A DNA stretch of 64,000 nt, from the NCBI GenBank assembly GCA_027972325.1, contig JAPMOS010000011.1, positions 64,501 through 128,500 on the forward strand, written 5' to 3'. Position numbers and translations under genes: made by a program. Origin of the DNA: Paratrimastix pyriformis (taxonomy: Eukaryota; Preaxostyla; Paratrimastigidae). Each line of letters begins with the position of its first letter. The stretch's first letter is position 1. A model generated the notes under the pieces. The model had not been told where the DNA came from and did not search any database. It saw nothing but the letters and a program-made list of their open reading frames with translations. This document shows positions 10,218 to 50,939 of this stretch, piece by piece.

Positions 10218-10349
10218 GGCGGCGAGGGCTGCTTTTGCTGCTTTGTGCCTCTTCTTCTCTTTCTTTTTCTCGGCGGTTGAGTGGCTGTGAATACGAAGGC
10301 GCGCTCTGTGGAGCCTCCCCAACGAGGAGGTTCTGCAAATGACTTCATT

Positions 10350-11976: not shown

Positions 11977-12109
11977 AGCTGCCCGGGGTGACCTGCCGGC
12001 AGGGAAGTCTCTCCGGGGGGGCCGCCGAGGCGACCGCCGGCACTGAGGGGCACCAGAAGCCGTCAAGAGATTCTTGAGATCCAACGTTTTCAGAGAACGT
12101 GACAACTAC

Positions 12110-12748: not shown

Positions 12749-15700
12749 TCAGACGGCCAGGCCCTGCTGGATGAGCCACTTGGCGAGGTCCCGGTCGCTG
12801 GTGTCCACGTGGGCCACCATCCAGTGGCGGAGGATGTGGTCCAGGGTGAGGTACTCCGTCAGCTGCCCCTTGGCGATCCGGCCCGTGATCCGCTTGATCT
12901 GCACAGGGGGGCACCGGCCACCACCCGCCATCATCCACCATCACAGAGGATGTGTTGAGGCATCGTATCCCATCCAGGGGGAGGGCCGCTGCCGACCTTT
13001 GCGAGGCACTCCTTGTGCTGGGCGGCGTGAGCCAGGCTGCGGGGGAAGCCGTGGTCGGCCATGAGCTGGTCCTCCATGGCGAAGTGGCCCGAGACAATCT
13101 CCCAGAACTGGGCCGTCAGCGCCTCGATCACCTGCCGAGTCAAAGAAAGAACGGGTGGCGTCACGGTCTGCACCCCGTTCGCAAAGGGGCCTCCACAAGG
13201 GACTGATTGCTTTGCGCATTGCGACCTCTCTGCTTCTGTTGTTTCCTACGACCCCCCTTTGACACATACGCTCACACAGAGACATGCTGTGTATTTGCAA
13301 GGACGCAGGCGAAGAGAAACATACACAAGCACAGACGCAGACACAGACACAGGCACAGGCACAGGCACATGCACAGGCACATGCACAGGCACTCGCCCAT
13401 GTCGCACCGCCCATGTCGCACCCACCGACGGACCTCGGTGCGCTCATTGGCGGCGACTGTGGTCAGGAGGTGGGCGCCGATCTCCAAGATGGCCATGTGG
13501 TCGGCATCCAGGGCCGGCACACCCACCGAGTACGCGTCGCGCCACTCCAGGGCCCCGCTCGCTGGACAGTCAAACAGAGAGATGGTGAATGGGTTGACAA
13601 ACAGACGGACAAACAGAGGGGAAGCCAACCAGACGGCCCCCCAAGCAGCCCCTCGCCCACAGAGAGCCCCCCCCCCCCCCCCCCCTGCCCCCCTGCCCCC
13701 CTGCCCCCTGCCCCCTGCCCCCTGCCCCCTGCCCCCTGCCCCTTGCCCCCAGGTCATGGCGGACCCTCCTCCTCGGGGAAGAGTTCGATCATCTTCTTGG
13801 TCTTGTTGGCCGCATCCCACAGCAGCGGCTTCAGCGGCAGCAGCAGCGCCACTGCGGCGGAAAGGGAGATCGTGAGGGCAACCAGATGGTCACTTCCACC
13901 GTGGGCAGGGGGTGGGTGGGTGGGTGGGGGCAAGGGGGGGTGCGAGCGGCGGACCGAATGTGATGAGGATGCTGAGCAGCCCGAAGACCAGCGAGATGAC
14001 GGCAGTCGAGGCGGCTACCTCACGCAGTTCGTACGACTCGCTGCCCCACCACCGCCAAAGAGAGACCACGGAGATTGGGTGGTGTTGATGATTCGGTGAT
14101 GGCGAGATGGGCGCGATGATGGGCGCGATGGGCGGTGCCTCCCAGGCGCGGACTCTTGATAAGTCTCGGTCCATGCCCGCATGCCCGCGCCCAGGTCCCA
14201 CCGGCCGGCCGTGAAGAGGAACTCGAAGTACGGGTTGGCCGGGGTGAGCTCCTCCGCGGGCAGGCTGCTCAGCATCCGGGCCGAGGCCAGGTACCGGGCC
14301 AGGAGCGGCATCAGGCCCACCATGGTCTCGTCCATGCCCTTGATGCGCCCCGGCACGCAGTCGGTCTCGTTGAGCATCAGGCAGGCCCGTGGCTCGTCCA
14401 GCAGGGCCTCCCGGGGCGCGAACCGGCCCACGGCATACTCGAACCAGATGTTGTCGATGATCGTGTCGTTGGTCAGGTAGCCGCTCTGGCTGCCGTACAC
14501 CGTCAGGTACCGGATTCGCTCGATGTACCCCACCTGGCGCTCCATCAGGGCCTGCAGGGCGCGCCGGTCGGTGGACAGGTGGCCTAGGTCGCGCCAGACG
14601 GGGTTGGTGGCGGCCGTGTTGGCGGGGTTGCCCAGCAGGTCCATCGAGTCGTTGAAGAGCAGCTGGGTGCCCATCAGCCGCAGGGCGACCACCTGGTTCT
14701 CGAGCTGCCCGCAGAGGGCCATCTGGTGGCCCAGCACGCCCATCTCGGTCAGGTTCATGACCGACAGCACGGCCGAGCTGCCCACGGCCAGCACGATCAG
14801 CAGCAGGCCGAGGCTGATGCGGATCCAGAGCCGCAGCGAGATGCCCGCCGCGTAGGTCGACCGCACCACCCGCCCAGGCCGGCCGGCCTCCGCGGCACCT
14901 TTGGCCGTCTTGGCGCCGCCCTCATCCTCGGGTGCGCCGCCCGGGGAGGTCGGGTTGGGGGTGGTCGTGGCGGCTCGGGCTGTTGTCGTGGTTGCGGTGG
15001 TTGCGTCCAGTCCGACGTCGAACCGGGCGGTGCTGCCCCGGCCCATGGCGGTCCCCGAGTTCGGGTTGGTGTTCGTGTTCGTGTTGGGGGGGCCCGCGGG
15101 GGTGGCCGTGACCGGCGGGGCGAGGGTCGGCTCGGCAGGCCCAAGGCCACCCGCTGCGTCAGATTAGATAGGCGGTGGTGATGGAGTGATGACTTTTGGG
15201 CGATGATGAATGCTTGGGCGATGATGATGGTTGGGTGGTGGTGACCCATTCCGAGGGACAGGGGAGGGTCGGGGCCCAGACCCTGCAGGACAGCCAACAG
15301 GCCCGCCGTCCCGCTCTCCGCGGTCTCATCAAACTCGCCCGCGTCGCCCAGGGGCGGCTGGTCGCCGGTCGGTGGTGGGGGCGGGGGCCCCGGAGCCATG
15401 TCGCAGGGCGGGTCGGGCGGGGGGCCCAGCACCAGGCTGACGGTCGAGGGGGCCTGCGAGAGGGGCGGCGGGGGCGGGGCGGAGTCGGCGCCCAGGGCCG
15501 GGCACGAGCGCACCCGCGGTTCGTCGTCCATGGGGTCGCTGCTCAGCGCAGCGATCATCCCCTGGATGACTGTGGCGGTGAGAAGGGGGAGGGGTGAGAT
15601 GGGGGGGAGGGGGGGAGGAGCGGGTGGTGGCGCAACCCATTCTGCGTCCCGTGTTGGGGCTCGAGTGCGGGAGGGGCGGACCGTGGGTGGGGATGGTCAT

Positions 15701-18700
15701 GAGCTGGGCCAGGGCCAGCTCGCGGTCACGGCGGAGGGTGACCGAGGTGCGCACGAAGAACGAGTCGATCATCACAATCGCGATGAAGGCCACCGCCCCC
15801 GCCAGCGCCAGAACCGTCACCTGCAAACACACACACCCCGGGGCATGGGGCATGGGGCATGCGTGGGGCATGCACGGGGCACGGGGCACGGGGCACGGGG
15901 CACGGGGCACAGCAGGGCATATGCCAAATCAACCGGCGAACAGCAGTCAACCAGTCGACGGCATCGGAAAGATGCGAATCGAATCGACGACCTGAGCAAA
16001 CAGAAGAGCCCTCCAAGCCAGGAGGGCCGGGGGCGTGGGGGGCGTGGGGCAGGCGAGCCGACCTTGAGGACCTGGGTGCGGTTGGCGATGAAGACCCCAT
16101 AGGCGAAGGCCACCTGCTTGAAGTATTCCAGCCTGCCCCCGCACCGCCGCCACCCGCCACCCGCCACCCGCCACCCGCCACCCGCCACCCGCCACCCGCC
16201 ACCCCACCGTCATCATTCCCGTCGGTGGGTGAATGGGGGAAGGAAGGGAGCCGAGGGAGGGCGGCAGCAAACAGGCCGGACGGACAAGACACCCTCGTTG
16301 GCCAGGGTCATCCGGGCGTCGGCCAGGAAGGGATCCGAGCTGCAGGCCATGCAGGCAGCCGGAGGCCCAGAGGGGACGGCAGGCAGGCAGGCAGGGCATG
16401 ATGGCAGGGCAGGGCATGATGGCAGGGCAGGGCATGATGGCAGGGCAGGGCATGATGGCAGGGCAGGGCAGGGCAGGACACGGGACGGGAAGACGAGGGC
16501 GATGAGGTGACGGTGGTGGCCCCAAAGGCAAGGGGGGCCACGTGGCGTGTCACCCACTCGATGCGCATGCGCGAGGAGTCACGGGGCGGCTGTGTGCCTG
16601 AACTATTCCTGCCACAGGGGCGCGGGGGGGGGGGGGGGTGGCGCGGGGGACGGACTCGAGGTCGAGGAGGCCATGTCGCAGCCGGCCTCCATGTAGCGGG
16701 CCATCATCCCCCGCAGGGTCGAGCCGAGCTGCCCGCCCCGACCCCCCCGCGGCATGGGTGGTGCAAACGCGGTTTGACATGGGCGAGACGGCGGAGAGCA
16801 CATGATGGCCGAGTGGTGATGGCAGCGCACCCTGGGCGAGCCGATTGGGGGGGGGGGGGGGGGGGGGCAGATGGGTGCGGGTCGGGCGGACCTGCCTCTG
16901 GAAGGTGTTGACGCCCCTCATGGTGACAATGTCCGTCACGACCATCCGGTTGTCCTGCGAAGGGGTGGGTGGCGGTGGCGGAGGCGGAGGCGGATGGTTT
17001 ATAAGGCGATTTGCGTGCAACCGGGCGGGGGGTGGGTGGGATGCGATGTGGAAGGGCCGGGGCGCGTGGCGACCTCCCATGCCTCGTGCATGCCGAACTC
17101 GACGGCTGCCGTGTAGACGGAGGCCATGGTCTCGTGCACCTCGAGGGCGCTCTCCAGCATCGACTCGCGGGCCTCCTCCACGCTGGGCAGGACAGTCGCT
17201 GCCCCAGCGCACCACAAGCCAGCCGGGCAACACCACCCACCACCCACCGCATCATCGTTCGTGGTCCTTCCCACTTGGCATCATCGGAAAGGGCAGAACG
17301 GGCCCATCCAGACGTGTGACAGGACGCGGCCGGGTGGTATAGCGGACCTTTCAGCGGGCTGCCCTCGCCGTCCTCGCCGAGGACGACCCCAGAAGCGATG
17401 GCGGCCGCTCGGTGGGCCAGCAGCACCTGCCTCGCAGCAACCCAGCCCCAGCCCCAGCCCCAGCCCAACCCACACGCGCGTGCGCCGAGGTTGGGGACCG
17501 ATCAGTGGGCGGGGCGAGCCGGTGTTGAATGCCCGCCACCCTGCACGTGCTCTCCTCGGACGGGTGGGATGAGCGCCGCAGCGACCTTTGCGTCGATGGC
17601 CATCTGGCGATATGAAGTGACGAGCGGGATGGAGGCGGGGTGGAGGCGGGGTGGGAGGTGGGGGTGAAGCCGCGTCCTCTGGGGCGACCTTTGCGTCGAT
17701 GGCCATCTGGCCGGCCGCGGCCTGCACCTCGAGCATCTCGTCGAGCCCGTCGAGCGAGGCCACGATGACGTTCATGTTGCCCACCGAGACGCAGTACGAG
17801 GCAATCACCGAGCCCAGGCAGATGGCCCCCAGCAGCAGCAGCACCTCCAGGAAGTGCGGCAGCAGGTTCTCCTTGCGCGAGGCCAGCCTGGGAGGCATGG
17901 TGTCGAAGTGTGTGTGTGTGTGTGTGTGTGTGTGTCGAGTAAAGAAGGAACGAAGTAACGGGAAAATAAAACAAGTGCGTGTGTGTGTGTGTCGAGTGTG
18001 TGTGTGTGTGTGGGGGGGGGGAGGGAGGGAGGGGGAATGAAGGAAGGAAGGAACCGTGTGACTTGGGCGCGTTCCCGAAGCAACGAGTTCTGGGCGCCAA
18101 AACGGCATCCATGCGGTGGTGGTGGTGGTGGAGGTTGGGCTGGGTGGGCCGCTTGGCGGGACCTGATCTCGGCGACCTTCCTCTTGCGGCCCCGGCGGTC
18201 CCGCTCCTTGTCCTTCTTCTTGCGGTGCAGCTGGTGCAGCGCCGCGCTGGGCAGCTGGGTGTCACAATTCAACCACGAGGAAGGAATGAGAGGGTGAGGG
18301 GAGACGGGGAGGGACTGGGTGGATGGTGGCGAGGCGCGCCGCGCTGCAGCAGGCCGGCCGTCGGGAGGGATCGGCGGACCAGTGACGACTCCAGAGAGCA
18401 GCTGCCGCCCTCGGAGACCTGCCCCCCCCCCCCCCCCCCCACCCCCCCCGCCCGCCCACGAGTCCACAGTCCAACGACGCAGCAATGAGGACGGTCCGGG
18501 GACCAACGAATGATCCAACTGCTGATGTCAACGCCGCATCACCGAGGGTGGCGCGTGCGTCCGCAATCGAATACGCACGCGTGAAGATGGTTCATCGGCA
18601 CAGGTCACGAGATTTGGTCGGCATTCTCCCCCGCATTGTGGGTTTCTCCGTGGCCCGGCCCCGCTCGCCCCTCCTCCCCTTCCTCCTCCTTCTCCCCCTC

Positions 18701-18948
18701 CTCCTCCTCCTCCTCCTCCTCCTCTCCCGCGGGGCGGACCGACTGGTCGTCCTCGATCTGCTCGGCCCTGCTCAGCAGGATCCGGGCGGCCTCCTCATTC
18801 CGATAGATGTCCCGCTGCAGGGCCGCGTAACCCCTGCAGGCCCACACCACATTGGGGTGTGTGTGAATGGCGCCCTCTTCTAGCACCGCGCCGCAGGCCA
18901 CACCGCTCCATAGGCGCCCGCACAAGGCGGCTGTGGGTGGCGCGTGGA

Positions 18949-19012
<64 letters not shown>

Positions 19013-22000
19013 GCGGACCGGAGCACCTGGATACTGTTGGGGTGTGACTGCAGCAGCAGCTCGTAGTACTCGCGGGCCTTGGCCTCGCTGTCCACCACGC
19101 AGGCCGTCAGCTCGGCGATCCGGCCCTGCTCCACCACCGGCGCCAGCAGTGCCTCGCAGACGTCCCGCAGGGCGGCTGGTGGATGGCGCACACACACCCC
19201 GGGATGGTCAGATGTGAGCGTGGGAAACAGCCGAGTGAAGGGTTCCCGAGCGGGGCAGGGCGGACACTTGGCGGCCTCGTGGTACTTCTGGGCCATGCCC
19301 TGGTGCCGCTTGAAGGTGAACACCGACATGACGTGGGCCGACCGCAGGTCCCCGCCGGCCTGATGGAGGGGCGTGGCGGATGATAGGGAAGGCATTGAGG
19401 GGAGATATGGTGGCGGTGGTGGTGGCCGCCCAAGGGGACGGGTGGCTGGTGGGTGGGTGGGTGGGGGCATGCCGGCGGACGGATGTCTGCTGCTCCCAGT
19501 CCTTGGCCTTGAGGTAGATCACGAACCGCTCGTCGATGGCCGGCTGGCACTGGGTGCCGTGTCCCACACCAGCCCAGCCCAGCAGGGAGAGGATGGAGAG
19601 AGAGAGAGGGGGGGGGGGATGGGAAGGAGAGGGGGGAGGGAGGAGGGGAGGAGGATGGGGGGGGAGGATAGAGGGAGGAGGGAGGGAGGGAGGGAGGGGG
19701 GGGGATGCAACATAAAAGAAACGGGGCGTACGGTGAGCCATGCGCAAGATGGTGACGGGAGGGCGGGCGGAGCAGCAGCTCGCAAATACACAGCATGTTC
19801 TCTCGGGTGGGAGTGCTGGGGCGCCGGATGGAAATAGGCGGCCGATCAACGAGCGCATATTCGGGACGCGCTGAGGGAGAGAGGGAGGGGCGGAGTGGGA
19901 AGGAGGGGTGGAGAGGGAGGCGCGAGGAGGGAAGGGCTGAGAGGGAGGGGGCTGCTGCTGCTGACCCGGCGCGCCTGGAGGAGCTGCTGCATGCACCGGG
20001 CGAAGTTCTTCCGGAAGCTCTGGTGGGCCGAACCGCCGCCCCATCGGCACCACCACCCACCACCACCCACCACAGGGAGCCCGTCACAGTCAGAAAAGCG
20101 AAAGAAGCAGGCGAGCAGCCATCCCGACCGGGGCGGGGGAGGCGCGGGGCCCCAACCAGCAGCAAGGTCGTGTCGCCCATGGGTGCGCGCAAGGCGGGGC
20201 TTTGGGGAGGGCTTCACGTGGAGCCGGGAGCCGCGGACCAGCAGGAAGATGGCGTAGCCCAGGTGCAGGGTGGGGCTGGCCTGCATCTTGTGGAAGCCCT
20301 CGTTGTAGAGCCAGTCCGCGAACATGACGTACTCCGGCCGCTTGCGGAACTCCTTCCTGCCGATCCACAACACCAGGGTGAGTGTGCTGCTTGCGGAACT
20401 CCTTCCTGCCGATCCACAACACCAGGGTGAGTGTGCTGCTTGCGGAACTCCTTCCACGGGTCATCGCGGGCGGGGGGCGGATGGGGGCAGGGCAGCAGCA
20501 ACGGACCGGTGCAGGAAGCGGACGGCCCGCTCAACCTCCTGCGGGGAGCGGAACTTGGGCGGGGGCGGCACGGGGCCTGGGACCAGAGGGGTGGTGGGTG
20601 GGGGTCGGGAGGGTGTGCGCCAGGGGGGATACCTACTGACTCCTCAAAACGCGCCTGCATCATCCCCCCAACCCAACCCAACCCAACCCAACCCAACCCA
20701 ACCCAACCCAACCCAACCCAACCCAACCCAACCCAACCCAACCCAATCCAACCCAATCCAGCCCAGCCCAGCCCAGCCCAGCCCAGTCGAGCGGGTAGGT
20801 GGAGTCTGCCGACCGTCTTCCGTCGCCACTTTGAAGGCAGGGCGGCCGCGACGGTCACCCCGAGTGACCACGGTGGGCATCCGGCCGGGGGAGAGCCGCC
20901 AGCCCCTGGGGCCCGCCGACGAGGCGGGCTCGGTGGTGCTGCGTCGCAGGTAGTACAGCGGTAGCTGGCCCCGAGGGCCCAGCGCCCACAGCCGCCGGAA
21001 GCGGAAACCTGCGCCCGGGGGTGATGGAAGTGGGGGGGGGGGGGGGGGGTGGGGATGAAGGGGAGGCGGCGGCCTTCGAGTGGGTGCTGTATTGCCTGTC
21101 TGTCAAGATGTGTGTCTGCGCGGGTGCGCCCGGGCGACGGACGAGTCAGAAAGACGACGAGCACCCCACGGCGGGCAGGGTCAGGAAGTAGCCCAGAAGC
21201 CGGCCATCTGGCCGGGGCTCGTGCCTACCAGCGGGGCGAAGGTGGCGAAGATGCACGAGAGGCCAACCATCCCATAGAGCGAGCCCATCTGGGAGAGGGG
21301 AGGGTTCAAATGGTGGGCGACCCGGGGGCATGGTCTCCTGGGTCCCTGACTGATGCGCATTCGGAAGGGGCGGACAAGGTGGGCGGCATGACGGACCAGC
21401 GAGTTGCCGCGGGCGGAGCAGTAGGGCTGCGACCAGAGGCACCTGCGCGAGGATGCGAAGAGCGCCATAAGTGGATATTGAGCGTCGGTGGTCTAGTGGT
21501 AGAATATCACGTTGCCATCATGGTGACCCGGGTTCAATTCCCGGCCGACGCATCCTTTTTCTTCTTCCATAACCCTCTGACGACGGACCGGGCAGCCAGG
21601 CCGAGGTAGCCGCAAATGCTGACGACCGCCCGGGGGAGGTGGTACTTGGTCAGCAGTTTGGTGGTGGCCACGATGGCCAGCTTGCAGAGCAGCTGTGGGC
21701 AGGCCGACGAGACGGAGAAGACAGGATCGATTAGATGATAAATGCCGCTCGGGGAGGGCTGGGGGGTGGGACGGACGGCCATGAAGTCGATGCGCCCGTT
21801 GGGCCGGGCCAGCATGCCGCCCTTCTTCGGGTCGTTGTTGAACAGGCTGGTGGGCAGCAGCAGGGGCAGCAGGGGCAGCAGGGGCAGCAGGGGCAGCAGG
21901 GGCAGCAGGGGCAGCAGGGGCAGCAGGGGCAGCAGGGGCAGCAGGGGCAGCAGGGGCAGCAGGGGCAGCAAGGGCAGCAAGGGCAGCAGGAGACAGCGGG

Positions 22001-23219
22001 GGGGACACTATGTGAGTATGCGGCTGTGCGGTCTGTGTCAGAGTCGTGCGCGGGCCCGGACGGACAAGAGGCTGGTGAACTGGGAGAAGGGCACGAAGAC
22101 CACCAGCACCACCAGGGCGATCACGCTGGGGATGATGTGCGGCATGGCCCAGCACTTTACGTTGGGCAACACCGCATGCACGGGCACCTCGATGCCCTGT
22201 GGTGGTGGAAAGGAGGGGCGAGGTGACGGTGGTGGAGTGGGAGCGAGGGGATGAAGGGGCGGGAGATGGGGCTCGGCCTGGCGGACGATGTAGTAGCAGT
22301 CGAGGATGGCCAGCAGGATGCCCACGCAGGGCATGTAGAGGAACGACACCTGGCATCCACCAGCGGCCATGGAGAAGAACAGAAACGGCGAGAAAGAACC
22401 CCATGAGGCGCGGAGGGGTGGGGGGAGGGCGACATCAAGGATCGGCATGGTGGAGGGAGCCACCTCTGGGGGGCACAAAGGGCGACAGACCATCGAGATG
22501 GTCAGGACGCGGAGCACCTTGAGGGGCCACAGGGGCATGGTCTTATTCAGGTGGAAGAGCACAGCCACCAGCAGCGCGTCCACAACCGCCCCCACAATGA
22601 AGACGCTCACCAAGGCGAAGACAATGTCTACAGAACCAGAAGGTCAAGCAAAGAGGCTGGAGTGAGAAGTGGCGCCAGACAGAGGGCCAGTTGGCTGCTG
22701 GAAGATATGCTCAGATCGATGATCGAAAAGCTGGTCCGCACAAAGTTCTCTGCTCGACCGAGGGGCCATTGGATCCCGTTGAATGAGATGGCTGAAAAAG
22801 AGATCATGGGTGCTGCTCGAAGCGAACAGACCGATCATCTATAATGGTTCGAACAAGTCCCAGGCGGTTTCGTCTTCATAGATGCCAGGAAAATCAATCA
22901 GACCTGAAGAAATTGCAAGAGGAGACTTAACTGTGCCGGAAACCGGAAACCGAGGTAAACACGCTGCTTTTCGCGAAGATTTTCAGACCATGTTCAATTT
23001 CTTGAATCCTTCCGACTGGTCCTTACACATGCTATAATAGAGACCAAATACTAGCGGTTGAAGAGGATATAACATAACGGATGCGGGCAGAATTCACCGG
23101 CCTGCTTCATCCCATCTGTTGAAATGAAGAGTGGTCGCCTCATCCATTGAACCGAGCGATTGACTTTCATCTTGTTGCCCCGGCGTTGGAGGAATAGGGC
23201 CCCCACCTTGGGCTTGCAT
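12749..23219 (-). CDS. Giant membrane receptor with TmcB/TmcC-like repeats and C-terminal hemerythrin domain (left copy)
   Basis: The ATG is at 23219 (MQAQGGGP) and the TGA at 12749, with roughly 30 exons. Approximate order: N-terminal membrane block at 22625-21160 (FIVGAVVDALLVAVLF, SFLYMPCVGILLAILDCYY, HIIPSVIALVVLVVFVPFSQ); helical repeats at 20350-18630 (FADWLYNEGFHKMQASPTLH, IDERFVIYLKAKDWEQQ, EAKAREYYELLLQSHPNS), resembling TmcB/TmcC TPR regions of amoeba and trichomonad sensors; membrane-bounded segment 17860-15700; disordered linker; second segment 14850-13950; then hemerythrin from 13560. Ligands are complete: DADH, HFAMED, HAAQH and HVDTSD. Hemerythrins bind O2 or iron at a diiron site, so a redox/O2-sensing receptor is likely but inferred. 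It is a paralogue of the plus-strand gene at 23691-34609. A tRNA gene sits antisense in one intron. Confidence 0.75.
13683..13747. repeat. CCCCTGC heptamer tract
   Basis: A poly-C run (13669-13685) passes into about eight copies of a CCCCTGC-type 7 bp unit in an intron of the left receptor gene, just upstream (gene sense) of the first hemerythrin exon. Confidence 0.85.
18957..19010. repeat. GGCT tetranucleotide microsatellite
   Basis: About 13 perfect copies of the 4 bp unit lie in the intron after the exon ending SHPNSIQVLR of the left receptor gene. Confidence 0.9.
20341..20453. repeat. 49 bp tandem duplication across a splice junction
   Basis: Two identical 49 bp units (20341-20389, 20390-20438) and 15 bp of a third. 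On the minus strand each unit carries the end of an intron (ggcag) and the start of the next exon (GAAGGAGTTCCGCAAG), so three copies of the exon start lie in a row. Only the copy nearest 20350 continues into conserved protein. The right receptor gene has a single junction at the matching place (26421). Confidence 0.9.
20664..20760. repeat. AACCC pentanucleotide microsatellite
   Basis: About 18 copies of AACCC pass into CCAAT/CCCAG variants at 20745-20790, in an intron of the left receptor gene. Telomere-like in appearance, but isolated and internal. Confidence 0.9.
21482..21552 (+). tRNA. tRNA-Gly (GCC)
   Basis: A 71 nt cloverleaf. The acceptor stem GCGTCGG/CCGACGC is perfect over 7 bp, the D arm is GTCT-AGTGGTA-GAAT, the anticodon loop is TTGCCAT with anticodon GCC, and the T arm is CCGGG-TTCAATT-CCCGG. 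The discriminator is A and no CCA is encoded, as expected of a nuclear gene. Promoter boxes match: TGGTCTAGTGG (A box) and GGTTCAATTCC (B box). A Pol III stop of five T follows at 21556-21560. The anticodon stem has one A-C mismatch and a terminal G-T pair. It lies antisense in a 146 nt intron (21443-21588) of the left receptor gene, taking up half of it. Confidence 0.92.
21845..21983. repeat. GGGGCAGCA nine-bp minisatellite
   Basis: About 14 copies of a 9 bp unit lie next to the exon encoding SLFNNDPKKGG of the left receptor gene. The same unit, as CTGCCCCTG, occurs in the matching intron of the right copy at 24935-24995, so the tract probably predates the duplication. Confidence 0.9.
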
Positions 23220-23690
23220 TTCTGGGATTGTATCGGCCGAGGCGACTTGAACCTGGGGCTTTAGCCACCCCAGGCGCCAGCGAAAAGTGGGCTTGCGCAG
23301 CCTTGATTCGGCTTAAATTTTTGGATAGAGCACGCCCTGCGCGTTTGCGCGGGAATTGGCCAGGCGAGCACGAAATACCTGCAGCAGATCAAACATTCAA
23401 AATACATTTTCCCGCAGCAATGTAGGAGGATTGTCGGATTGACGGCGGGCAGTTGTCAAAAAAGGTTGAAGGGGGAAAGGGACCACACCTCCTTCCCAAC
23501 TCGAACGCCTGAGAGTTTTTCCTTCTTCCTTATCCTGAGTCGAACTGGAAAACCTCGTGAATTCCAGGGCAGCCCAAACTACGCGCACATGGAGTTGTCC
23601 GAACTCTCGAAACCGACCTTCTGGTCGTTTGCCCGCTCAGGTCGGAAGTACCCAAGAGCTTGGCTTCTCCACTACAGACCAAAACGCCAG
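23220..23690. promoter_or_regulatory. 471 bp divergent promoter region of the receptor pair
   Basis: This separates the two head-to-head ATGs (23219 minus, 23691 plus). It is less GC-rich than its surroundings, with no conserved coding frame in both directions. No clear TATA box or operator was found. Any shared control of the pair should lie here. Confidence 0.55.
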
Positions 23691-26600
23691 ATGCTGCTCG
23701 CACGTGGCGGTGGTCCTGTCTCGCCTGGAGGAATCACGTCGAGCCACAATGTAACAAACCCAGGGGACGCACCTCTCCCCCCCCCACAACACCATGGTGG
23801 TGGCGATAATGAATCCTTGGGTGGGGGGGAGTCACTCAACAGCACAGTTTTAACGGAAGGGGCTGCCCTACACTTTTCGCGGATCGATGAGGCTGGTCAG
23901 TTCTGGTTTCTTTCCTCAATTGTCTTCGAACAACTATTTCGTTGTTATTTAGTTTTCGGCCTTTACTATTCCATGAGTAAGGATCAGTCAGAAGGCCTCA
24001 AAAAAATAGCAACGGTCTGTGAGAACCCTTCACCACAACAAATCATTCCCCCGGAAATAGATTAATCTACTTGTGCAATTTCTTCAGGTCTGTCGGGGAG
24101 CGACTCACTTTCTCACCACGCCCTTGTTACCTTGGCGCACTTTCTGGGCATCTATTAGATGATCGGTCTGCTGAGATGGGCACTCCTCCCGCTTATTCTT
24201 GGTTTCACAGCGATCTCTTTCCACGGGATTGAGTGGCCCCTTGGTGCGACGGAGGATTATGTCCGGATGGCGTTCTCGGTTATCGACCTCAGCATCTCCA
24301 CTCGCTCTCAAACAGCTCTTTGTCTGCACGTCTCCCACCCCCCGGCAACTGACCCGCTCCCACCACTTCAGATGTCGTCTTCTCCCTTGTGGCGATCTTC
24401 ATCGTGGGAGCCGTGGTCGATGCGGTGATCGTGGCATACCTCTTTCACAAGGTCAGAAGTTGTTCTCACCAGGGTGTCATACCCTCCATCCCCGCTAGAA
24501 CCATTCCCTCCCACTACTCCCCCTGAAAATCCTGAGGCTCCTGACCTGCTCCATGGTGACCTTCCTCTACATGCCCTGTGTGGGCATATTACTAGGAATT
24601 CTGGATTGCACCTACTTTGTCTGTTGCGGCCTTCCCGTTGGGTCTGAAGATCACCCTCATCTCCATCGCCCCGAAACTAGGGCATCGAGGTGCCCGTGCA
24701 TGCGGTGCTGCCCAACCTGGAGTGCTGGGCCATGCCGCACATCATCCCCAGCGTGATCGCCCTGGTGGTGCTGGTGGTCTTCGTGCCCTTCTCCCAGTTC
24801 ACCAGCCTCTTGTCCGTCTGGACTCACACACACAGCGCACCGATTCGGATGCACATGGGGTGGGGGGGGGGGTCACCCATCCTCTCCTCCCCCCCTCCCC
24901 CCCCTCCCCAATCCTCATTGTCTGTCTGTCTGTCTGCCCCTGCTGCCCCTGCTGCCCCTGCTGCACCTGCTGCCCCTGCTGCCCCTGCTGCTGCCCGCCA
25001 GCCTGTTCAACAACGACCCGAAGAAGGGCGGCATGCTGGCCCGGCCCAACGGGCGCATCGATTTCATGGCCGTCCGTCCCACCCCGAGCCGGTCCCATCC
25101 AACTCCCAATGCTCGCCCAGTCACTCGCCTTACAAGAACCCCTCTGCTCTCTGGTTCATCAGCTCCTCTGCAAGCTGGCCATCGTGGCCACCGCCAAACT
25201 TCTGACCACCTACCCGGAGGTCCGGGGGGCCGTCAGCATTGCGGGCTACCTCTTCCTCGCCATCCGGTCTGTGCCCCCCCCCACCCCCCACCCCCACCCC
25301 ACCCCTGCCGGCCGGACTTTTCTTCATCGACCGCGGCATGCATTCCTTCTCCTCCTCCCCCCCCCCCCCCCCGCAGGGTCTTCAGTATCAGCCCTATTTC
25401 ACCTCCCGCGGCAACGCATTGGTCCGGAGCCTCCACGCCCCATTCCATGCCCCGCTCGCCACTCCCTGTCCGCCTCCTCTCCAGATGTCCGCCCTCTACA
25501 CCTTGCATCACCCAATGACGCATGCCACCCCCCCTTCCGCCTCCCCAGATGTCCGCCATCTACAGCACCAGCACCCTCGTGCATCTTCGCCACCTTCGCG
25601 CCCCGGGTGAGCCCGTCCAATGTCGGGGCCACTGTCGGCTTCTGGGTGGGCTACTTCCTGGCCATGACGACCGTGGGGTATCGACCCTGCTCTGGTCCCG
25701 TCCGTCCGCTCTCCTCCTCCTCCATGCTTCTGGTCGGGCGCGCTGCCCGCCCCCCCCTCCCCCTCCCCCCCCCCCCGAAAACCCCTCGCGCCAACATCCC
25801 CCGCCTGCATCGCGGCCTTTCCCGGGTTGGACGACTCAGGATTCCGGACGCGCAAGTTGTGGGCCCTGGGACCCGGGGGCGCCCTGCCCCCGTACTACAG
25901 CGCCCAACGGGCCACCACGGATGGCGAGCCGGACCACACCCGGGCCGCCCGTCGGGGCTCCATGGCTCCGTCCTCTCCCCTCCCGGGGCGCCCCACGGCG
26001 GGGGTGGCGGCGTCGGCCCCGGCGGGGATCCCCGAGCTGTCCAGCCCTGGGCCGGCCCAGACCCCATCGCCCATGCTGCTCCCGGCGGCAGGATCGTGTT
26101 CCTCCCTCGGCATCCCCCCACAGGGCGAGGCCCCCGGTCCGTGCTCATCCCCGCGCCCCTCTCCCCAGTCGCGCCCCCGCGACGACTCTGCCGTCTGACC
26201 GAATCGTGCGTGCCCGGTGGTGTTGGGGGTGTGCGGGGTGAGGCAGGCACCCGTCAGCCCAAGTTCCGCTCGGCCGTTGCCGTCGACTGGGCCACCCGCT
26301 TCCTGCAGCAGTTCCGTCGCGCCCGCCCACCATTCGGCTATCCGCCCACCCGCCGGCCCACCCACCGAGGGCTCGCCCCTCCCCTCCGATCCAACTCACC
26401 CTGTTCCCGTGCCCCCTGCAGAAAGCAGTACCGCAAGCAGAAGGAGTACGTCATGTTTGCCGACTATCTGTACAACGAGGCCTTCCGCAAGCAGCGCAAT
26501 AACCCTGCCCTGCACCTGGGCTACGCCATCTTCCTGCTGGTCCGCGGCGCCACCGCTCTCTCCCGCCACCCCAAAGTCCCACCACCCCCCACCTGAGCCA

Positions 26601-28921
26601 CGCCATCTTCTTGCCCCCGTGGATCCATCGCCCAGCCCACACGCCCATCACCGGCCTCCAAGCCCCCCCCCCCCAGCAAGGCCTCGCCATCGTAACCTCC
26701 CTTTGGGATCCCCCCCCCCGGCAGCGTATCGGAAGAACTTCGCCCGGTGCATGCAGCAGCTCCAGCAGGCCCGCCAGGTCGGTGTGGGCCCACATCCCTG
26801 CTGCTTGCCTCACATACACCCCTGCCTCACACACCCCTGCCTCGCACACCCCTGCCTCACACACCCCTGCCTCACACACCCCTGCCTCACACACCCCTGC
26901 CTCGCACACCCCTGCCTCGCACACCCCTGCCTCACACACCCCTGCCTCACACACCCTGCCTCACACCCCTGCCTCACACACCCCTGCCTCGCACACCCCT
27001 GCCTCGCACACCCCTGCCTCACACACCCCTGCCTCACATACACCCCTGCCTCACACACCCCTGCCTCACACACCCCTGCCTCGCACACCCCTGCCTCGCA
27101 CACCCCTGCCTCACACACCCCTGCCTCACATACACCCCTGCCTCACACACCCCTGCCTCACACACCCCTGCCTCGCACACCCCTGCCTCGCACACCCCTG
27201 CCTCGCACACCTGTTGCTGTTGCTGACCTGCCTGCTGGGCAGTGCTATCCCTCGATCGACGAGCGGTTCGCCATCTACGTCAAGTCCAAGGACTGGGAGC
27301 AGCAGACCTCGGTCCGCCTCGCCTCGCCCCCCACCCGCTCCCCCTCTCCTTCGTCTCCCCCCCTTCATCGCTGGGATCTCCCCCACGCCCCTCCATCAGG
27401 CCGGCGGGGACCTGCGGTCGGCCCACGTCATGTCGGTGTTCACCTTCAAGCGGCACTTCTCCATGGCCCAGAAGTACCACGAGGCCGCCAAGGGTCCGAC
27501 GAGCCGCCTCGCACCACCACCCACCACCACCCCGCACTCCACCCTCACGCGCCACTCCCACGTCATGACCATCCAGTCAGCGCCCTTCTTGTGTCAATCT
27601 CCCAGACTCCAATCGCCCTTCCTCACACCGCCCCCCCCCCCCCCCCCCCCCCCCCTCCCCTGTCCAGCCGGGTTGCGGGACATGTGCTGCTGGCGCCTGT
27701 GGTGGACCAGCCGCGGATTCCCCAGCTGACGGCCACCATCGTCGACAGCGAGGCCAAGGCCCGCGAGTACTACGAGCTGCTCCTCGAGTCCCACCCCAAC
27801 AGCCTGCAGATCCTCCGGTCCGCCCCGCCTGCAGCACCCCACTCTCTGCTGCCTGTCACCCCACCCCAACCCCACCCCCACCCCCACTCCCACCGCCCAG
27901 AGCTTCCGCCTACGGCCCGCTGCCCCGCCGCCCCGAGCTTGCCAGCTCGTGACGCGCGCTCACGCACCCCCACCCTGCCCCCCCCCCCCCCCCCGCCCCA
28001 CCCACCCACCCACCCACCCACCACGCAGGGCCTACGGGGCATGCTGCGTGAGATCTACCACGACGAGGACTCGGCCAAGGTGCTGCTGTCGCGTGCGGAC
28101 CAGCTGGAAGACGACGCGTCCGTCTCGGATGCGGGCAGCTCGCTGGGCAGCTCGCACGTGGTGGGCGGCAACACGCTGCAGTCGCTGCACAACAAGAAGA
28201 AGAAGAAGAAGAAGAAGAAGGGCATCGAGATCAAGTCCGTCGCCACCCCCCTCCCCCCCCCCCCCCCCCCCGCCACCCCGCCACCCCCCCACGCCACCGT
28301 GACCTGCGCAGGTGCGCGCCGCCGTGTGATGTCCGTCTGTCTTCCTGCCCGCCAACCACCTGTCTGGGCCTCTCTCCCCGTGGCTGGGGTGGCTGGGGGT
28401 GGCAGGCTGATGAGCCGCAAGGAGAACCTGCTGCCGCACTTCTTCCTGATCCTGACGGGGCTGCACCTGCTCTGCCTGGCCTCGATCGTGGCCTCCTCGG
28501 TGCTGGCCTTCGTCATGATGGGCTCCCTGCAGGCATCCGTCGTGGGCCTCAACGAGATGCTCCAGATGGAGACCCTCAGCACAACCGTCGCAATCCACGC
28601 AAAGGTCCGCACCCGGTGGGGGAAAGTGCTCTCGGGGGATGGTGGCTGGGAGGCGCGCGATGGGGCGGCCTCTGCCATTCGTATAGGCGTCGCCTCCCAT
28701 CGATCATCCCTGCTGCACTGCCCCGTCGCGCCGTCCCGGGGTGGTGGGGGATGGGGCAGGTGCTGATGTCGCATAACATGGCCCTGCTCGAGGCGGGCGG
28801 GCAGCTGCTGGGCAACGAGACCGCAAGCCCGCTGGACGGTCCGACTGCCCCGCCCCCCATAGTCGGTATCTCCGCCACCATCACCACCACCACCAAACCA
28901 GCATCAACATCATCATCACCC

Positions 28922-28969
<48 letters not shown>

Positions 28970-31900
28970 TCATCATCCATCATCATCCATCATCATCCAT
29001 CATCATCCATCATCATCCATCATCATCCATCATCATCCATCATCATCCATCATCATCCATCATCCATCATCATCATCATCGTCACACTCAACCATGTCAC
29101 CATATCACCATTCATCACCATTCATCACCATTCATCACCATTCATCACCATATCTGCGTTCTTGTTTTCATCGACCCTCCATCCCGACGCATGGCCCCCG
29201 CAGGCACCATCCTGCCCACGATCGCCGAGACCCGCAAGTTGTTGAGCGACGACGCGCTGCTGCTGCGCCGCCTGCAGACGGCCGTCTACGAGGCCACCAT
29301 GAAGGACGGCATGCACACCCACTTCGAGGTCCCTCCGGCCCACTTGACTGGCCCCCGCCCTCCCCGCCCGCTCCACCCTCCCGCTGCCACGCTCGCCGCC
29401 GTCCCGCGCCCAACGTCAGCCGTTCTGCTTTTCTTGGGGGAGGGGGAGGGGGAGTCCACGCGTCTTCTCTCGCCATTCCCCTGCTCCTGGCCTCCGGGTG
29501 GTGGCTCCTGGCCTTGCTGTACGATCACTCACTCACCCACCATCCCTCCCCTCCGCGATCTGACGATCACAGACGAACAACCTCAACGCAACCGACCTGA
29601 TCGTGGGCCGGGGGGCCAACATCGGCCAGCGGGTGGTCCGCCCCCCTCCCACCTCTGTCCCATCTGGCCCTCCCTGTCCCTGTCCCTCTCCCACCTGCCC
29701 CTGGCCGCGACCCGCCACACCCGATCGCTGACCGGACTCCCCTCCCTCCCCATCACCCGCGCATCATTGGGCCGCCCATCGGTTTGTGCAGCTGGGCTAC
29801 ACGCTGAGGGGGCTGCTCGACCGGTTCGTCGAGGTGGCCCTCGACCTGGCCAACAGGCCCTTCGGGTCAGCCCCGGCGCCATCCTTCTCCCCGCCCCCGC
29901 CTTCCCCCTTCGTCGCGAGGCCCGCTTCCTCCCGCTCGCTGCCCTCCTCGCTGCCCTCCTCACGGCTCCGCTGTGGCCATGGGCTGGGTTGGGGTTGGGG
30001 TTGGGGTTGGGGTTGGGGTTGGGGTTGGGGTTGGGCAGATCGGACGTGTTCCTGTCGAACGCCCAGTTCCTGATGGTCAACCACCCGGGGATGCTCGAGT
30101 ACCTGAAGGACTTTGGCTTCCACTACGGCGACACCATCGACTCGGGGGTCGCCCAGGTGGAGGTCCGGCCCCCGCTGCCACCCGCCCCGTCCCACGGCCC
30201 TTCCACCTCCACCGCCATCTCCACCTTCATCTGCCCGATGTGCCTGGTTTCCCTGTGGGCGGGGTGCCCGCCTGCGTGAGAGCGGATGCGTGGCGTGGGG
30301 GTGGGCTGCGTGCTCACGGTTATCCACCTGGTGAATGGGTGCGCGCCTCCCTCTCGGCATGATCCTCGCCGTCCAGCGAGGTGGAGCCACTTCGTTCCCC
30401 CCTCCGCAACCTCACCGCCCGTACCGTGGACCCCCCCCCCCCCCCCCGCCAGGCATTCCTGTTGGTGCTGGGGAACTTCTCGGCGGCGGTGGTGCTGTTC
30501 TGCGTGCTGACCTTCTTCCTGAAGACCTCCTTCCGGCTGGGCCGCGACCGGGATCTGGCCATGTCCCAGGTGCTGGCCATCCCCAGGCCCGGTCCGCACC
30601 CGCCCAGCCCGCCCAGCCCAGCCCGCCCGGCACACGCCACCGAAGACCCCCACGGGACGCCAGTCTCGGCGTGGTTTGCGCAGCAGAGATGGGTGGCTCA
30701 CGAAGATTGGCAAGCGAGATCGACACGGACCGACCCTTTTGCCTTGTGGGCCTCCTGGGGCGGTGTTGTGTGTGTATGCAGCCATCCAGGGGATGCTGAC
30801 CTCGCTGACGGCCGAGCAGCTTGACGAGGCGCCCAAGATCCGCTCCTCGGGGCCCGAGGGGTACTCCTCCTCGGCGGCGGCCACCCCGGCCTCGACGCCC
30901 ACCCCCACCCCCCAGCCCACCCCGCCCTCGACCCCGCCCACCGCCTCCGCCCCGGTGCCGATCCCGACGGGCCTGCCCGGATTGCGCCCCCTGGGCGGCG
31001 GGCGGTCCTCGCCCCGCCCGGTCTCCGTTGCCCCGCCGCCCCCCGCCGCCGCCCCGGGACAGCCGGATGCAGCCGCAGCAACACGGCTGGGCATCCCACC
31101 CTGGGGCGTGCCCATCGATCTGGGGACCGGTGCCGCCCCCGACCCCGACTCCGCCGCCTCCCCCGCGGCCTCGGCCTCGGTGCTGGCCCCGCCGACCCTC
31201 GACCCCCCGGCCAGCGACCGGGCCGGTGAGCGGTCGCCCCTGCTGCGGTCCGTGTCGGGCCGCTCGCCCTTCGTGGGGCCGGCCGACTACCCGCCCCAGG
31301 TCAGCCCCGACATGGGGCCCCAGCTGACCCTGAGCGGCGGCTCGGGCTCGCTGAACTCGCTGGCCGAGTTGGCCACCAGCACCCTGGTCCGCTCGCCCAG
31401 CAGCGAGGGCCTGGTGGCCGTGCAGACCATCCAGGCCCTCCCGCCGGACGACGGGGCCGATGGCGCGGCCGCCCCGCCCGGCAGTACCCTGGTGATCCCC
31501 CTCTCGGGCGGCGAGTTGAAGGCCCCCACCCCGCTGAGCCTGCTCTCCGGCAGTGCGGCGGCGCCCGGGAGCGTCCTGGTCAGGGCCGAGTCGCAGCCCG
31601 GGCCCGCAGAGGCCTTGGAGCGGGGCGACGACATGGGCGGCAGCCCTCCTGGTGATGACGAGGGCAAGGGGGGGCTGCTGAGCTTCTCCACCCGCAATGC
31701 CCGGGCCCCGCCCTACGGGGCCACGGGCGAGCTGCTGGCCGCCCTGCAGGCCGGGCCCGACATCGCCGCCCCGGCCGGGGGGGCCTCCTCCCCGCCTCCA
31801 CGAGTGGCCGCCCGGTACATGGTGGCGAGCGCGGACCGCCCCAGCCACCCCAACGCCAGCGCGGGCACTCCGGCGCCGGCAGGCCCCGCCGGCGCCCCCA

Positions 31901-34609
31901 AGGGCGGGAAATCGCCGTCCGGGTCGGTGGCTGCCCCGGCCCCTCGCGGCCGGGCCCCCTCGGGGGCCCTCAAGGCGGGCGACTCGGGGGGCTCGGCGGG
32001 CGCGGTCCGGTCGCTGCTGCGCCGTGCCCAGGCCATCCCGATGGGGGTCTGGCTGCGGATCGGGCTGGGGGTGCTGCTGATGGTGGCCGCCATCGAGTGC
32101 TCGGCCATCTTCACCACGGTGGCCCTGAACACGCTGGGCTCGATCGGCCACCCGATGGCCCTCTGCGGCCAGCAGGAGGCCATGGCGGCCGAGCTGCGCT
32201 ACCTGGCCACCCAGCTGGTCTTCAACGACACCCTGCCCCTGCTGGCCAACGTGCCCGACGGCCGATCGACCAACCCGGTGCTGCGCGACCTGAGCCACAT
32301 GGCCAACGACCGGCCCAGGCTGCAGGCCATGGTCGACCTCGAGGTGACCTTCGTCGAGCGCATCACCTTTGTCCTGCTGGTTCGTCGCCTGCACCCCCGC
32401 GCCCCGCCCGGTGGCACGGCGACACAGACCACCACACCATCGCCCATCTTCTCATCCACTCCCCTCTCCTCCACTCCCATCTCATCTCTCCTCCACCCCC
32501 CCCCCCCCCCCTGGCACGACCCGTCAGTACGGCAGCAAGTCGACCTTTGTCATGGGGGACGCCCTGCTGGACAGCTACTTCCTGGAGGGCTGCTCGGGCC
32601 GGTTCGCGGCCCGGGAGCGGCTCCTGGACGGGGTCCAGGCGTGCCTCCTCCAGAACAGCACCTTCTGCACGCCCGGCCGCATCCAGGGTCTCGACGGGGA
32701 CTTCGTGGGCCTGATGCCGCTCCGGGCGCGCTTCCTGGCGGCCGGTCGCAAGCTGGGCACCCTGCCGCCCGACCTGCTGGAGCCAGACAACCCGTACTTC
32801 GAGTTCCTCTTCTCGGCGGGCCGCTGGGACCTGGGCGCGGGGCTCGCCCGGTGGACGGATTCCTTCCTCGAGTCTGCCGCCCCCAGCACCCCAGCCCCCG
32901 CAGACCCGCCGACCTCGGCACAGAAGGACGCCCATCTCCTCCAAGCAGGACCTCTTCTGCCTCCTCTCCTCCTGCTCCTGCTCCTGCTCATCCTCCACCC
33001 CGGTCGGCGTCTGATGGTCTTGTCCTTCACCTGGCGGCCGGTATGTGCGCCGCAGGGAGGCGCTGGAGATCGCGAGCCAGTCGAGCACCCTGCTGACCGT
33101 CTGGACGGTGGTCGACGTGTGCGGCATCCTCATCACATACCGTCCGCGGCAGCCGGCACCACCCTCATCATATGCCGCCACCCCCCCCCCCCCCCTGCCC
33201 ATCAGCGGAGGCAATTGCATGACCAACACCCCCGCTATCCCGTTCTCAACGCTTCGCCATCGTCTCTTCCCTCCCTCCCTCCGGTGGGGTGGGGGTGGCG
33301 CAGTTCTGCTGCTGCTGCCCACCAAACCGCTGCTGTGGCACGTGGCGCACAAGACCAAGAAGATGCTCGAGCTCTTCCCCGATGACGAGACAGGTCCGTC
33401 CCGACACCCCCCCCCCCCCCCACCCCCACCCCCCCACCCCGTCGCACAGCCACAGGCGACATCCTGCAAATGCAAACACAGACGCGCCCATACATGAGAC
33501 AGACAGGACACATGACACACATGACACACATGACACACATGACACATGACGACGCATGACACACATGACACACATGACACACATGACACACATGACACAC
33601 ATGACACACATGACACACATGACACACATGACATGACACACATGACACACATGACACATGACACACATGACACACATGACACACATGACACACATGACAC
33701 ATGACGCATGACGCATGACGCATGACACACATGACAACACACATGACGCATGACGACGCATGACGACGCATGACGACGCATGACACATGGCACATGACAT
33801 GACAACACACATGACAACACAACACCGATGACAACACGCATGACAACACGCATGACAACACGCATGACAACACGCATGACAACACGCATGACAACACGCA
33901 TGACAACACGCATGACAACACAACACATGACAACGCAACACACGCAAATCAACACAACACACATGACAACGACAACACAACACACGCATATCAACACAAC
34001 ACACATGACATAACGACACACCACATCCAGGCTGCACGCTGGAGTGGACCGACAGCTACCAGGTGGGCGTGGCTGCCCTGGACGCGGAGCACAAGCGCCT
34101 GGTGGAACTGGGCGCGGGCCTGGTGGCGGCCCTCATGTCGGGCGAGCGGCCCGACCTCCTGCGGTCCCTGGCGAGCGGCTTCATGGAGGCGGTCACGGGG
34201 GCCTTCGGTGCCGAGGAGCAGCTGATGGAGGAGCAGCGCTACCCCAAGGCCGAGACCCACGCCCGCCAGCACAAGGACACCCTGACCAAGGTCCGTCCCC
34301 AGAGAAAGAGAGAGAGGGGAGGGGGGGGGGGGGGGAGGGGGGAAGAAGAAGGGGAAAAAAGGCCGCTTGCACTGTGTGCGCGCTCTCTGAAAAGCATGAC
34401 CACCCCGTTCCCCCCATGCCCTCATTTCCGACTCCGTGCCGCCGCGCCGGCGGTTGCAGCTGAATCGGGCCGTGGAGAACGTGGCCCGGGGGAACGTCCT
34501 CGAGTACGGCACACTCGACCGGGCCCTCAGGCTGTGGCTCAGCGCCCACGTCGACACCAGCGACCGCGCCCTGGCAAAGTGGCTCGCCACCGAGCGCGAT
34601 ATCCACTGA
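23691..34609 (+). CDS. Giant membrane receptor with TmcB/TmcC-like repeats and degenerate C-terminal hemerythrin domain (right copy)
   Basis: A mirror-image paralogue of the minus-strand gene at 12749-23219. Exons match in order: MLLARGGGP at 23691; FGLYYSMSKDQSEGLKK; a 7 nt microexon at 24159-24165; AISFHGIEWPLG; membrane block at 24371-25680 (FIVGAVVDAVIVAYLFH, HIIPSVIALVVLVVFVPFSQ); repeats at 26421-28240 (FADYLYNEAFRKQRNNPALH, IDERFAIYVKSKDWEQQ, EAKAREYYELLLESHPNS); membrane-bounded segment 28408-30570; ~400-residue proline/serine-rich linker 30780-32030; second segment 32040-33120; hemerythrin 34031-34609. There the ligand codons are His 34090, Glu 34213, His 34258, His 34270, His 34547 and Asp 34562, but position 34201-34203 is Ala where the family has His. 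Exon edges in the low-complexity parts are approximate. Role as a sensor is inferred from architecture. Confidence 0.75.
26813..27212. repeat. 13-15 bp CACACCCCTGCCT minisatellite
   Basis: About 28 copies of a CACACACCCCTGCCT/CGCACACCCCTGCCT unit fill an intron of the right receptor gene between the exons encoding NFARCMQQLQQARQ and IDERFAIYVKSKD. The left copy has an unrelated GGA/GGGA-rich tract at the matching site. Confidence 0.9.
28918..29158. repeat. CAT-based compound microsatellite
   Basis: (CAT)n passes into CATCATC-C and CATTCATCAC variants inside an intron of the right receptor gene. Histidine/isoleucine runs read from it are artefacts. Confidence 0.9.
33495..33985. repeat. CATGACACA-type minisatellite
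   Basis: Roughly 50 copies of related 9-12 bp units (ATGACACAC, ATGACGACGC, ATGACAACACGC) form the intron immediately before the hemerythrin exon of the right receptor gene. Long cysteine/valine/methionine frames here are repeat translations. Confidence 0.9.
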
Positions 34610-50714: not shown

Positions 50715-50939
50715 AGATCTCCCCTTTTCCATCATCCAATTGAGTGGGGAAAAAAAAGATGACTGTCCGAGTTTTCTCCTCGGGGGGAAAGGGCCCTTCA
50801 ATCATAAATTATTCAAATTATCGAAGGAAAAGGGAGCTGAAAGAATACCCCGAACTTCGCAGCGCCTCCAGACCCCGGCAGACACTCCTCTCCCTCAGGC
50901 TCGAGCGACCATCATCCATCAACCCTGCGCTCTGCCGCC

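Follow-up and report, generated by a model that had tools for sequence, protein, structure and literature searches.

A genome-wide family of receptor-like genes in Paratrimastix pyriformis joining TmcB-type regions to C-terminal hemerythrin domains, as seen from a head-to-head gene pair

The DNA analyzed here (the window) is a 64,000-nucleotide stretch of contig JAPMOS010000011.1 from the flagellate Paratrimastix pyriformis, and contains two large genes, A and B, that diverge from a short central region and encode receptor-like proteins built from known parts in a new, apparently undescribed combination. Each protein leads from an N-terminal multi-membrane block through a TmcB-type tetratricopeptide repeat (TPR) region and two membrane-bounded ectodomains to a C-terminal hemerythrin. 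Both genes seem to be part of a larger family of some two dozen members spread over the genome, and the family itself is real. The reading favored here, at roughly even odds (about 0.5), is that its members are membrane receptors in which a cytosolic diiron hemerythrin serves as input and the membrane block and TmcB region carry the output. To our knowledge, little is understood of the means by which low-oxygen eukaryotes that lack ordinary mitochondria sense oxygen and keep away from it, and a receptor-like family of this size with a non-heme iron tail provides concrete candidates. An earlier reading of this DNA from its letters alone (hereafter the sequence-only reading) had supposed an oxygen-wary protist, which agrees with the genome paper's account of P. 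pyriformis as a free-living Preaxostyla flagellate of low-oxygen environments (PMC10703272).

Genes A and B are colinear paralogues in mirror image, with 58% identity over 1,118 aligned codons. One colinear chain of stop-to-stop frames matches the plus side to the minus side (from 24195/22807 to 34594/12764) and, with the spliced models, bears out the head-to-head arrangement first noticed by the sequence-only reading; the 471 bp it gave as the spacing is the distance between the two ATGs, and the sequence between them is presumed to be a shared promoter region. Its estimate of about 10.5 kb per gene was also close (10.9 kb for A, 10.5 kb for B), although the predicted proteins reach just 1,300-1,650 residues or so, because introns fill more than half of each gene. 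The gene models were obtained with a codon-usage model whose training set was the conserved segments, and hold about 35 well-supported exons per gene; the full listings run to 46 pieces for A and 45 for B, including tiny exons regarded as artefacts of stretches with ill-fitting frames. Models allowing GC donors everywhere, or permissive homology bonuses, were rejected for over-splitting or for reading through introns. The best protein matches of A are four P. pyriformis proteins encoded on one contig (45-53% identity), and protein searches found no full-length published model of A. The C-terminal 436 residues of B are 100% identical to the published P. pyriformis protein P0007, which confirms 11 of 15 tested splice junctions of B, including both joins within the hemerythrin. 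B has an intron inside the hemerythrin that is absent from A, each gene has one private intron in the membrane block, and the first intron of B, also in the membrane block, would need a GC donor.

The same segment order is found in A and B: multi-membrane block, TmcB TPR region, transmembrane helix (TM)-ectodomain-TM, linker, TM-ectodomain-TM, hemerythrin. Hydropathy, run on A and four published relatives, gives an N-terminal group of 4-8 hydrophobic peaks and then two peak pairs, each enclosing about 125-225 residues, in keeping with the order first proposed. The C-terminal hemerythrin holds up for both genes under the TIGRFAMs model TIGR02481 (A 75.9 bits, B 79.6; cut-off 51.75) and under Pfam PF01814 (A 36.0, B 36.7; cut-off 25.3), while the bacteriohemerythrin model NF033749 is narrowly missed (A 75.0, B 83.5; cut-off 84); by these scores both hemerythrins are bacterial-like, and neither is assigned to bacteriohemerythrin. 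The TmcB/TmcC-like region claimed for both is secure in B, which scores 52.5 bits against PF25474 (cut-off 27), and falls short in A at 22.6 bits, where a stretch of the domain, at a frame break, is missing from the model; the full-length relatives P0001-P0005 all pass. The last TM helix is joined to the hemerythrin by a conserved segment of the type KPLLWxxAxKTKKMxELFP. In all six sequences compared, ectodomain 2 has a pair of Cys residues bracketing an N-x-S/T sequon, plus a second sequon, and is therefore placed outside the membrane; counting segments from there, the hemerythrin is predicted to be cytosolic. The two ectodomains have no detectable relation to each other (hhalign probability 0.9%), and nothing in the PDB matches the sequence of ectodomain 2 at E <= 1. 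Its predicted fold (from B, folded alone) has no Foldseek match at E <= 0.001, and sensor ectodomains lead the VIA-align list only; no fold, the four-helix bundle of bacterial sensor ectodomains included, is assigned to it.

Relatives were sought in a P. pyriformis assembly of 495 contigs and 56.1 Mb (the genome paper gives 633 scaffolds and 56.6 Mb; PMC10703272), with the best candidates scored, so that the lists are lower bounds. At least 25 TmcB matches were obtained at E <= 0.001, none of them A or B, of which 22 exceed the family cut-off, and at least 31 pieces match TIGR02481 (E up to 0.1), just one of them above cut-off because introns cut the domain. A hemerythrin piece lies downstream on the same strand, 4-17 kb away, for 20 of the 25 listed TmcB matches, where 0.12 would be expected; the other placements are two on the opposite strand and three upstream, and five of the 25 have no hemerythrin partner. 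Among the 20, one match on C135 has as partner a hemerythrin to which another TmcB match lies closer, and for one on C474 a closer hemerythrin exists that the first search had overlooked. Twenty-two of the 31 listed hemerythrin pieces stand behind a TmcB match; among the nine others are a piece of A and two pieces of B, whose TmcB exons were probably too short or too diverged for listing.

Published gene models contain the fusion as well. P0002 and P0005 carry both domains by Pfam, P0003 and P0004 have TmcB plus a hemerythrin above the TIGR02481 cut-off, and P0001 has a partial hemerythrin (31.4 bits by TIGR02481). When an unannotated gene on C48 (L062) is parsed onward from its TmcB exon and no end is imposed, it passes through a TM-ectodomain-TM, a linker, a stretch like ectodomain 2 and a hemerythrin, and reaches a stop just past it; its second TM pair is under the hydropathy threshold. 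Sequence thus gives the full segment order of A, B and the published relatives, and part of it for one further gene; to the rest of the two dozen the order is extended because TmcB and hemerythrin stand in order on one strand. The sequence-only reading had taken A and B for a paired system, which the family does not support: none of the 25 other listed TmcB matches has a divergent TmcB neighbor within 20 kb, so the head-to-head pair looks like a local duplication rather than a unit of function. Protein searches found no such fusion outside P. pyriformis, which is weak evidence given exact-word matching and the best 8,000 candidates in each search; one further TmcB protein, P0006, has no hemerythrin in its precomputed Pfam list. 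As far as could be searched, then, the family is specific to P. pyriformis. The sequence-only reading knew of no described receptor with this architecture, and in the literature searched, pairing TmcB, Paratrimastix or metamonads with hemerythrin returned none either, while a search on TmcB itself led to unrelated papers. The word "hemerythrin" is absent from the main text of the genome paper (PMC10703272), and in PMC6397501 it occurs in the reference list alone.

A second, more divergent group of TmcB-hemerythrin genes was also met, on C135, C68, C52, C462, C48 and C57, several with two per contig; position 54 of its hemerythrins is Ser, Val or Leu where read (C135 excluded), never His. A locus on C79 (L034/L045, G000:C79:476952-477646) has a weakly matched hemerythrin in which all seven ligands are present; no TmcB match lies upstream of it, and it is possibly a stand-alone bacterial-type hemerythrin.

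Aligned to the hemerythrin of DcrH (2avk, E 2.2e-6), its closest match in the PDB, the hemerythrin of B has all seven diiron ligands in register, H-HxxxE-HxxxH-HxxxxD, and thus appears to have a complete site of the O2-competent type. In A, Ala replaces His54 and the other six ligands are present; judged by these residues, its domain is hemerythrin-like with a derived site. Reading 26 hemerythrin loci of the genome with the family profile gave His at position 54 in 6, another residue in 17 and no reading in 3. The final count drops the His of C190 (score 2.8, unreliable) and adds the Ala of L005, so that His54 is kept in 5/23 readable domains and lost in 18/23 (kept in 6/24 with C190 included, and in 4/19 when the C4 and C79 domains are excluded). 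The remaining ligands are nearly invariant where read, though many readings come from weak single-exon matches: His25 17/17, Glu58 23/24, His73 24/24, His77 23/23, His101 17/18 (Glu in P0002) and Asp106 18/18. In a control set of 28 bacterial hemerythrins, retrieved with patterns that exclude position 54, His54 is present in 28/28 and the variation lies elsewhere (His73 26/28, Asp106 25/26 read). The difference at His54 has a Fisher P of 1.2e-9 with relatives treated as independent.

The residues standing in for His54 are Ala, Ser, Thr, Val, Leu and Phe, and on a tree of eight sequences (supports 64-96) an ancestral His would have to be lost three times or more. A His one residue earlier, which might compensate, is present in four loci (C68 twice, C57 and C460). 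Position 54, in standard hemerythrin numbering, we take to be a ligand of Fe2. Fe2, with two His ligands, is given as the site of O2 binding (PMC9388753). With a full site in B and no His54 in A, the two proteins are unlikely to share their chemistry, and for A a role as reversible O2 binder is less likely than one in reading redox state or iron, or as a non-binding partner. That six ligands persist where His54 is lost favors a selected metal site that would no longer need reversible O2 binding. Recurrent and specific to one position, the loss is a natural experiment that predicts which members bind O2 and which do otherwise.

The sequence-only reading had inferred protein-level selection on both genes. 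Between A and B, amino acid identity is 74% in the membrane block and TmcB region, and 42-49% in the ectodomains and hemerythrin. Naive dN/dS from the membrane block to the hemerythrin is 0.24, 0.49 (TmcB), 1.03, 0.80 and 0.77, and the claim is only partly upheld. Where residues are identical, codon choice differs in 36% of membrane-block codons (42% expected if independent) and in 26% of codons elsewhere (41% expected), and third-position GC is 91% in the training segments; codon bias thus holds dS down, and the dN/dS figures are upper values. The sensory parts still evolve fast. Exons 7-8 (24681-25071 in A, 21777-22196 in B) are 97-99% identical, against 58-94% in the other 18 exon pairs compared, and the intron ahead of exon 8 is identical at 38 of 40 bp, which points to recent gene conversion between the inverted copies. 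Neither this tract, nor the frame breaks discussed below, nor the loss of an iron ligand in A had figured in the sequence-only reading.

The nearest known system is DcrH, a methyl-accepting chemotaxis protein of Desulfovibrio vulgaris, in which a cytosolic hemerythrin likewise forms the C-terminus of a membrane receptor that bears an ectodomain (PMC9388753). Unlike DcrH, A and B are eukaryotic, have no detected HAMP or MCP domain, and carry an extra multi-TM block, a TmcB region and a second ectodomain, while A and most hemerythrin domains of the P. pyriformis genome have no His54. A and B may work like DcrH by analogy, and are not assigned to the DcrH type of chemoreceptor. They share the TmcB TPR region and a multi-TM N-terminus with the TmcB/TmcC TPR proteins (PF25474), a tmcB family having been reported in another metamonad, Carpediemonas (PMC8516963); unlike the known ones they end in a hemerythrin, a combination that the literature searches did not turn up. 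The bacterial proteins Bhr-DGC, Bhr-HD-GYP and P1B-5-ATPase also fuse hemerythrin to another module, and output is redox-gated in Bhr-DGC and Bhr-HD-GYP (PMC9388753). A and B have no detected domain of the cyclase, phosphodiesterase or ATPase kind, and the P1B-5-ATPases vary another ligand (HxE for HxxxH), not His54.

On the favored reading, the cytosolic hemerythrin would act as a diiron input module for oxygen, redox state or iron. A change in its oxidation or metal state would alter the segment linking it to the last membrane helix, on the model proposed for the N-terminal loop of bacterial DcrH (PMC9388753, which also treats ligand roles and redox-gated outputs), and the short KPLLW-type segment would offer such a change a short path. 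The receptor so modulated would also read extracellular signals through its two variable ectodomains, and would signal onward through the conserved membrane block and TmcB region, the best candidates for output. B would represent the O2-competent type, whereas A would more likely read redox state or iron or serve as a non-binding partner. A bolder and more tentative proposal, to which we give somewhat less than even odds, is that a bacterial-like hemerythrin became fixed on a TmcB chassis, spread over about two dozen receptors and had His54 repeatedly removed; this would have made a new type of diiron site that reads redox state or iron in place of binding O2, while members with every ligand, B among them, would remain the true O2 receptors. 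A mitochondrion-reduced, low-oxygen protist would then possess a multi-channel sense of oxygen or redox state.

Several points weigh against the receptor reading. The topology is based on hydropathy and sequons alone. HAMP, MCP and cyclase output domains were not found in Pfam scans of A (in two parts, without the linker), B (up to its stop) and P0001-P0005; HAMP and MCP families are likewise absent from the scan of P0007. Of the 23 domains read for His54, four (two each on C4 and C79) lie behind no TmcB match and might be outsiders to the family, and Fisher's test assumes an independence that paralogues do not have. Divergence is fast in the ectodomains and hemerythrin, at a dN/dS of 0.77-1.03 before any correction for codon bias. 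Apparent frame breaks interrupt A twice and B once (Table 1), and if real would lead to truncated products. The published model for B omits the N-terminal half and continues into a kinase (10106-12750, minus strand).

The animal protein FBXL5, an F-box iron sensor controlled by iron occupancy, is likewise a eukaryotic hemerythrin acting as a sensor, and P0001 is named FXL5 in its public record; in the proteins described here, by contrast, the hemerythrin is C-terminal and nearest to general and bacterial hemerythrin models. FBXL5 suggests the most serious rival, doubtful as we judge it: that the tail is an iron-responsive stability switch or a structural leftover rather than a sensor of O2 or redox state, its six ligands kept since folding needs metal. 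The loss of His54 in 18/23 domains with the other ligands kept is what selection for metal binding, not for an O2 site, would give. Heme-synthesis enzymes, moreover, are reported by the genome paper as not found in Preaxostyla (PMC10703272), which makes non-heme iron chemistry plausible. However, B and four other domains keep His54, the best solved match of B is the O2-binding domain of DcrH, and Pfam scans of A, B and relatives found no F-box. It is improbable, too, that B runs on past its hemerythrin into the downstream kinase as a hemerythrin-gated receptor kinase. P0007 (1,302 residues, named calmodulin-dependent kinase) does combine the hemerythrin of B, at 31.4 bits, with a kinase domain scoring 167.6 bits, the stop of B is closely preceded by a GTCTGA donor, and the annotation pipeline is described as drawing on RNA-seq (PMC10703272). 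Yet two in-frame TGA codons directly follow the hemerythrin, and A and P0001-P0005 stop there too, or no more than about ten residues away, for which reasons the join is taken as a prediction error; the acceptor it implies ends in GAAG rather than CAG, and P0007 starts mid-gene, in the middle of ectodomain 1 of B, and is hence an imperfect model.

About equally improbable is that one or both genes are decaying, with similarity held up by gene conversion and the hemerythrin change in A due to drift. The three frame breaks and the near-identical tract of exons 7-8 would fit this, but no further disruption is met over the 1,118 aligned codons, and the membrane block keeps 74% amino acid identity although the codons of its identical residues differ in 36% of cases, against 42% expected if independent. 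The same loss of His54 recurs across many relatives. The frame breaks may be residual long-read assembly errors, such indels being expected in an assembly that is described as Nanopore/PacBio with Illumina polishing and RNA-seq-aided annotation (PMC10703272). Finally, the hemerythrin exons could be separate neighboring genes, the fusion being only apparent, an outcome that the sequence-only reading had itself named as fatal to it; this is very improbable, given published single proteins that carry both domains and a downstream placement conserved in 20 of the 25 listed TmcB matches.

Table 1. Coordinates of genes A and B and of their segments, counted from the first nucleotide of the window (aa, amino acids; nt, nucleotides)
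Feature	Position	Strand	Basis or remark
Gene A, TmcB-hemerythrin receptor-like gene	23691-34609	+	~35 well-supported exons; stop TGA 34607-34609; colinear homology to B; codon-use spliced model; 45-53% identity to four published P. pyriformis proteins
Gene B, mirror-image paralogue of A	23219-12749	-	Colinear homology, spliced model, P0007 match
471-bp region separating the start codons	23220-23690		54% GC
A, N-terminal multi-membrane block	23691-25421	+	Spliced model, hydropathy
B, N-terminal multi-membrane block	21397-23219	-	Spliced model
A, 27-nt exon and 7-nt microexon	24061-24087; 24159-24165	+	Spliced model; both shared with B
B, 27-nt exon and 7-nt microexon	22904-22930; 22832-22838	-	Spliced model
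A, end of membrane block	25549-25694	+	Frame apparently broken in comparison with B and relatives
B, end of membrane block	21170-21288	-	Frame apparently broken in comparison with A and relatives
A, TmcB-type TPR region	26422-28238	+	PF25474 22.6 bits (cut-off 27); apparent frame break 27668-27817
B, TmcB-type TPR region	18609-20356	-	PF25474 52.5 bits (cut-off 27)
A, TM-ectodomain 1-TM	28406-30591	+	Model exons; hydropathy peaks at residues 690, 911
B, TM-ectodomain 1-TM	15682-17887	-	Model exons, P0007 junctions
A, long low-complexity linker, predicted cytosolic	30782-31922	+	Exons least certain here
A, TM-ectodomain 2-TM	31975-33141	+	Model exons, hydropathy; conserved Cys pair around N-glycosylation sequon
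B, TM-ectodomain 2-TM	13955-14860	-	Single-exon part 14156-14860 folded alone
A, last TM (end) with juxtamembrane motif KPLLWHVAHKTKKMLELFP	33304-33393	+	
B, last TM (end) with juxtamembrane motif KPLLWDAANKTKKMIELFP	13765-13851	-	Model, P0007 junctions
A, hemerythrin helices A-C	34031-34290	+	His25, Ala at 54, Glu58, His73, His77
A, hemerythrin helix D, then stop	34460-34609	+	His101, Asp106
B, hemerythrin helix A	13434-13561	-	His25
B, hemerythrin helices B-C	12997-13131	-	His54, Glu58, His73, His77
B, hemerythrin helix D	12749-12898	-	His101, Asp106, then two in-frame TGA codons

The introns of A and B have unusual donors, reading GTC[CT]G instead of GTRAG. In 36 donors taken from the models (25 of A, picked by a model trained on them, and 11 of B confirmed by P0007, all 11 of them GTC), position +3 is C in 35/36 and +5 is G in 34/36. 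Candidate U1 small nuclear RNA (snRNA) genes occur in the same genome (L063-L067), with eight full-length matches, the best at 60.2 bits (E 3.7e-13) against a gathering score of 69.5; at E <= 10 the search also matched, below cut-off, 9 of 14 prokaryote controls. The canonical 5' end of U1 is AUACUUACCUG. That of the candidates is ATACAGACCTTG in 5/5 read and pairs with GTCTGTAT, and it would therefore seem that U1 and the donors have changed together. Literature searches returned nothing on Paratrimastix U1 snRNA.

Both gene models include a 7-nt microexon, ATGATCG, adjoining a 27-nt exon. In both genes CAG|GTCTG had hinted at a "recursive" splice site of zero length ahead of the microexon; this was rejected, as the sequence is the end of the 27-nt exon, which matches published relatives. 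A tRNA-Gly (GCC) gene lies within an intron of B at 21482-21552 on the plus strand, antisense to B. Elsewhere the window encodes a PPR-repeat protein (3492-5402, minus strand) and a separate protein kinase (50841-52277, plus strand, 239 bits).

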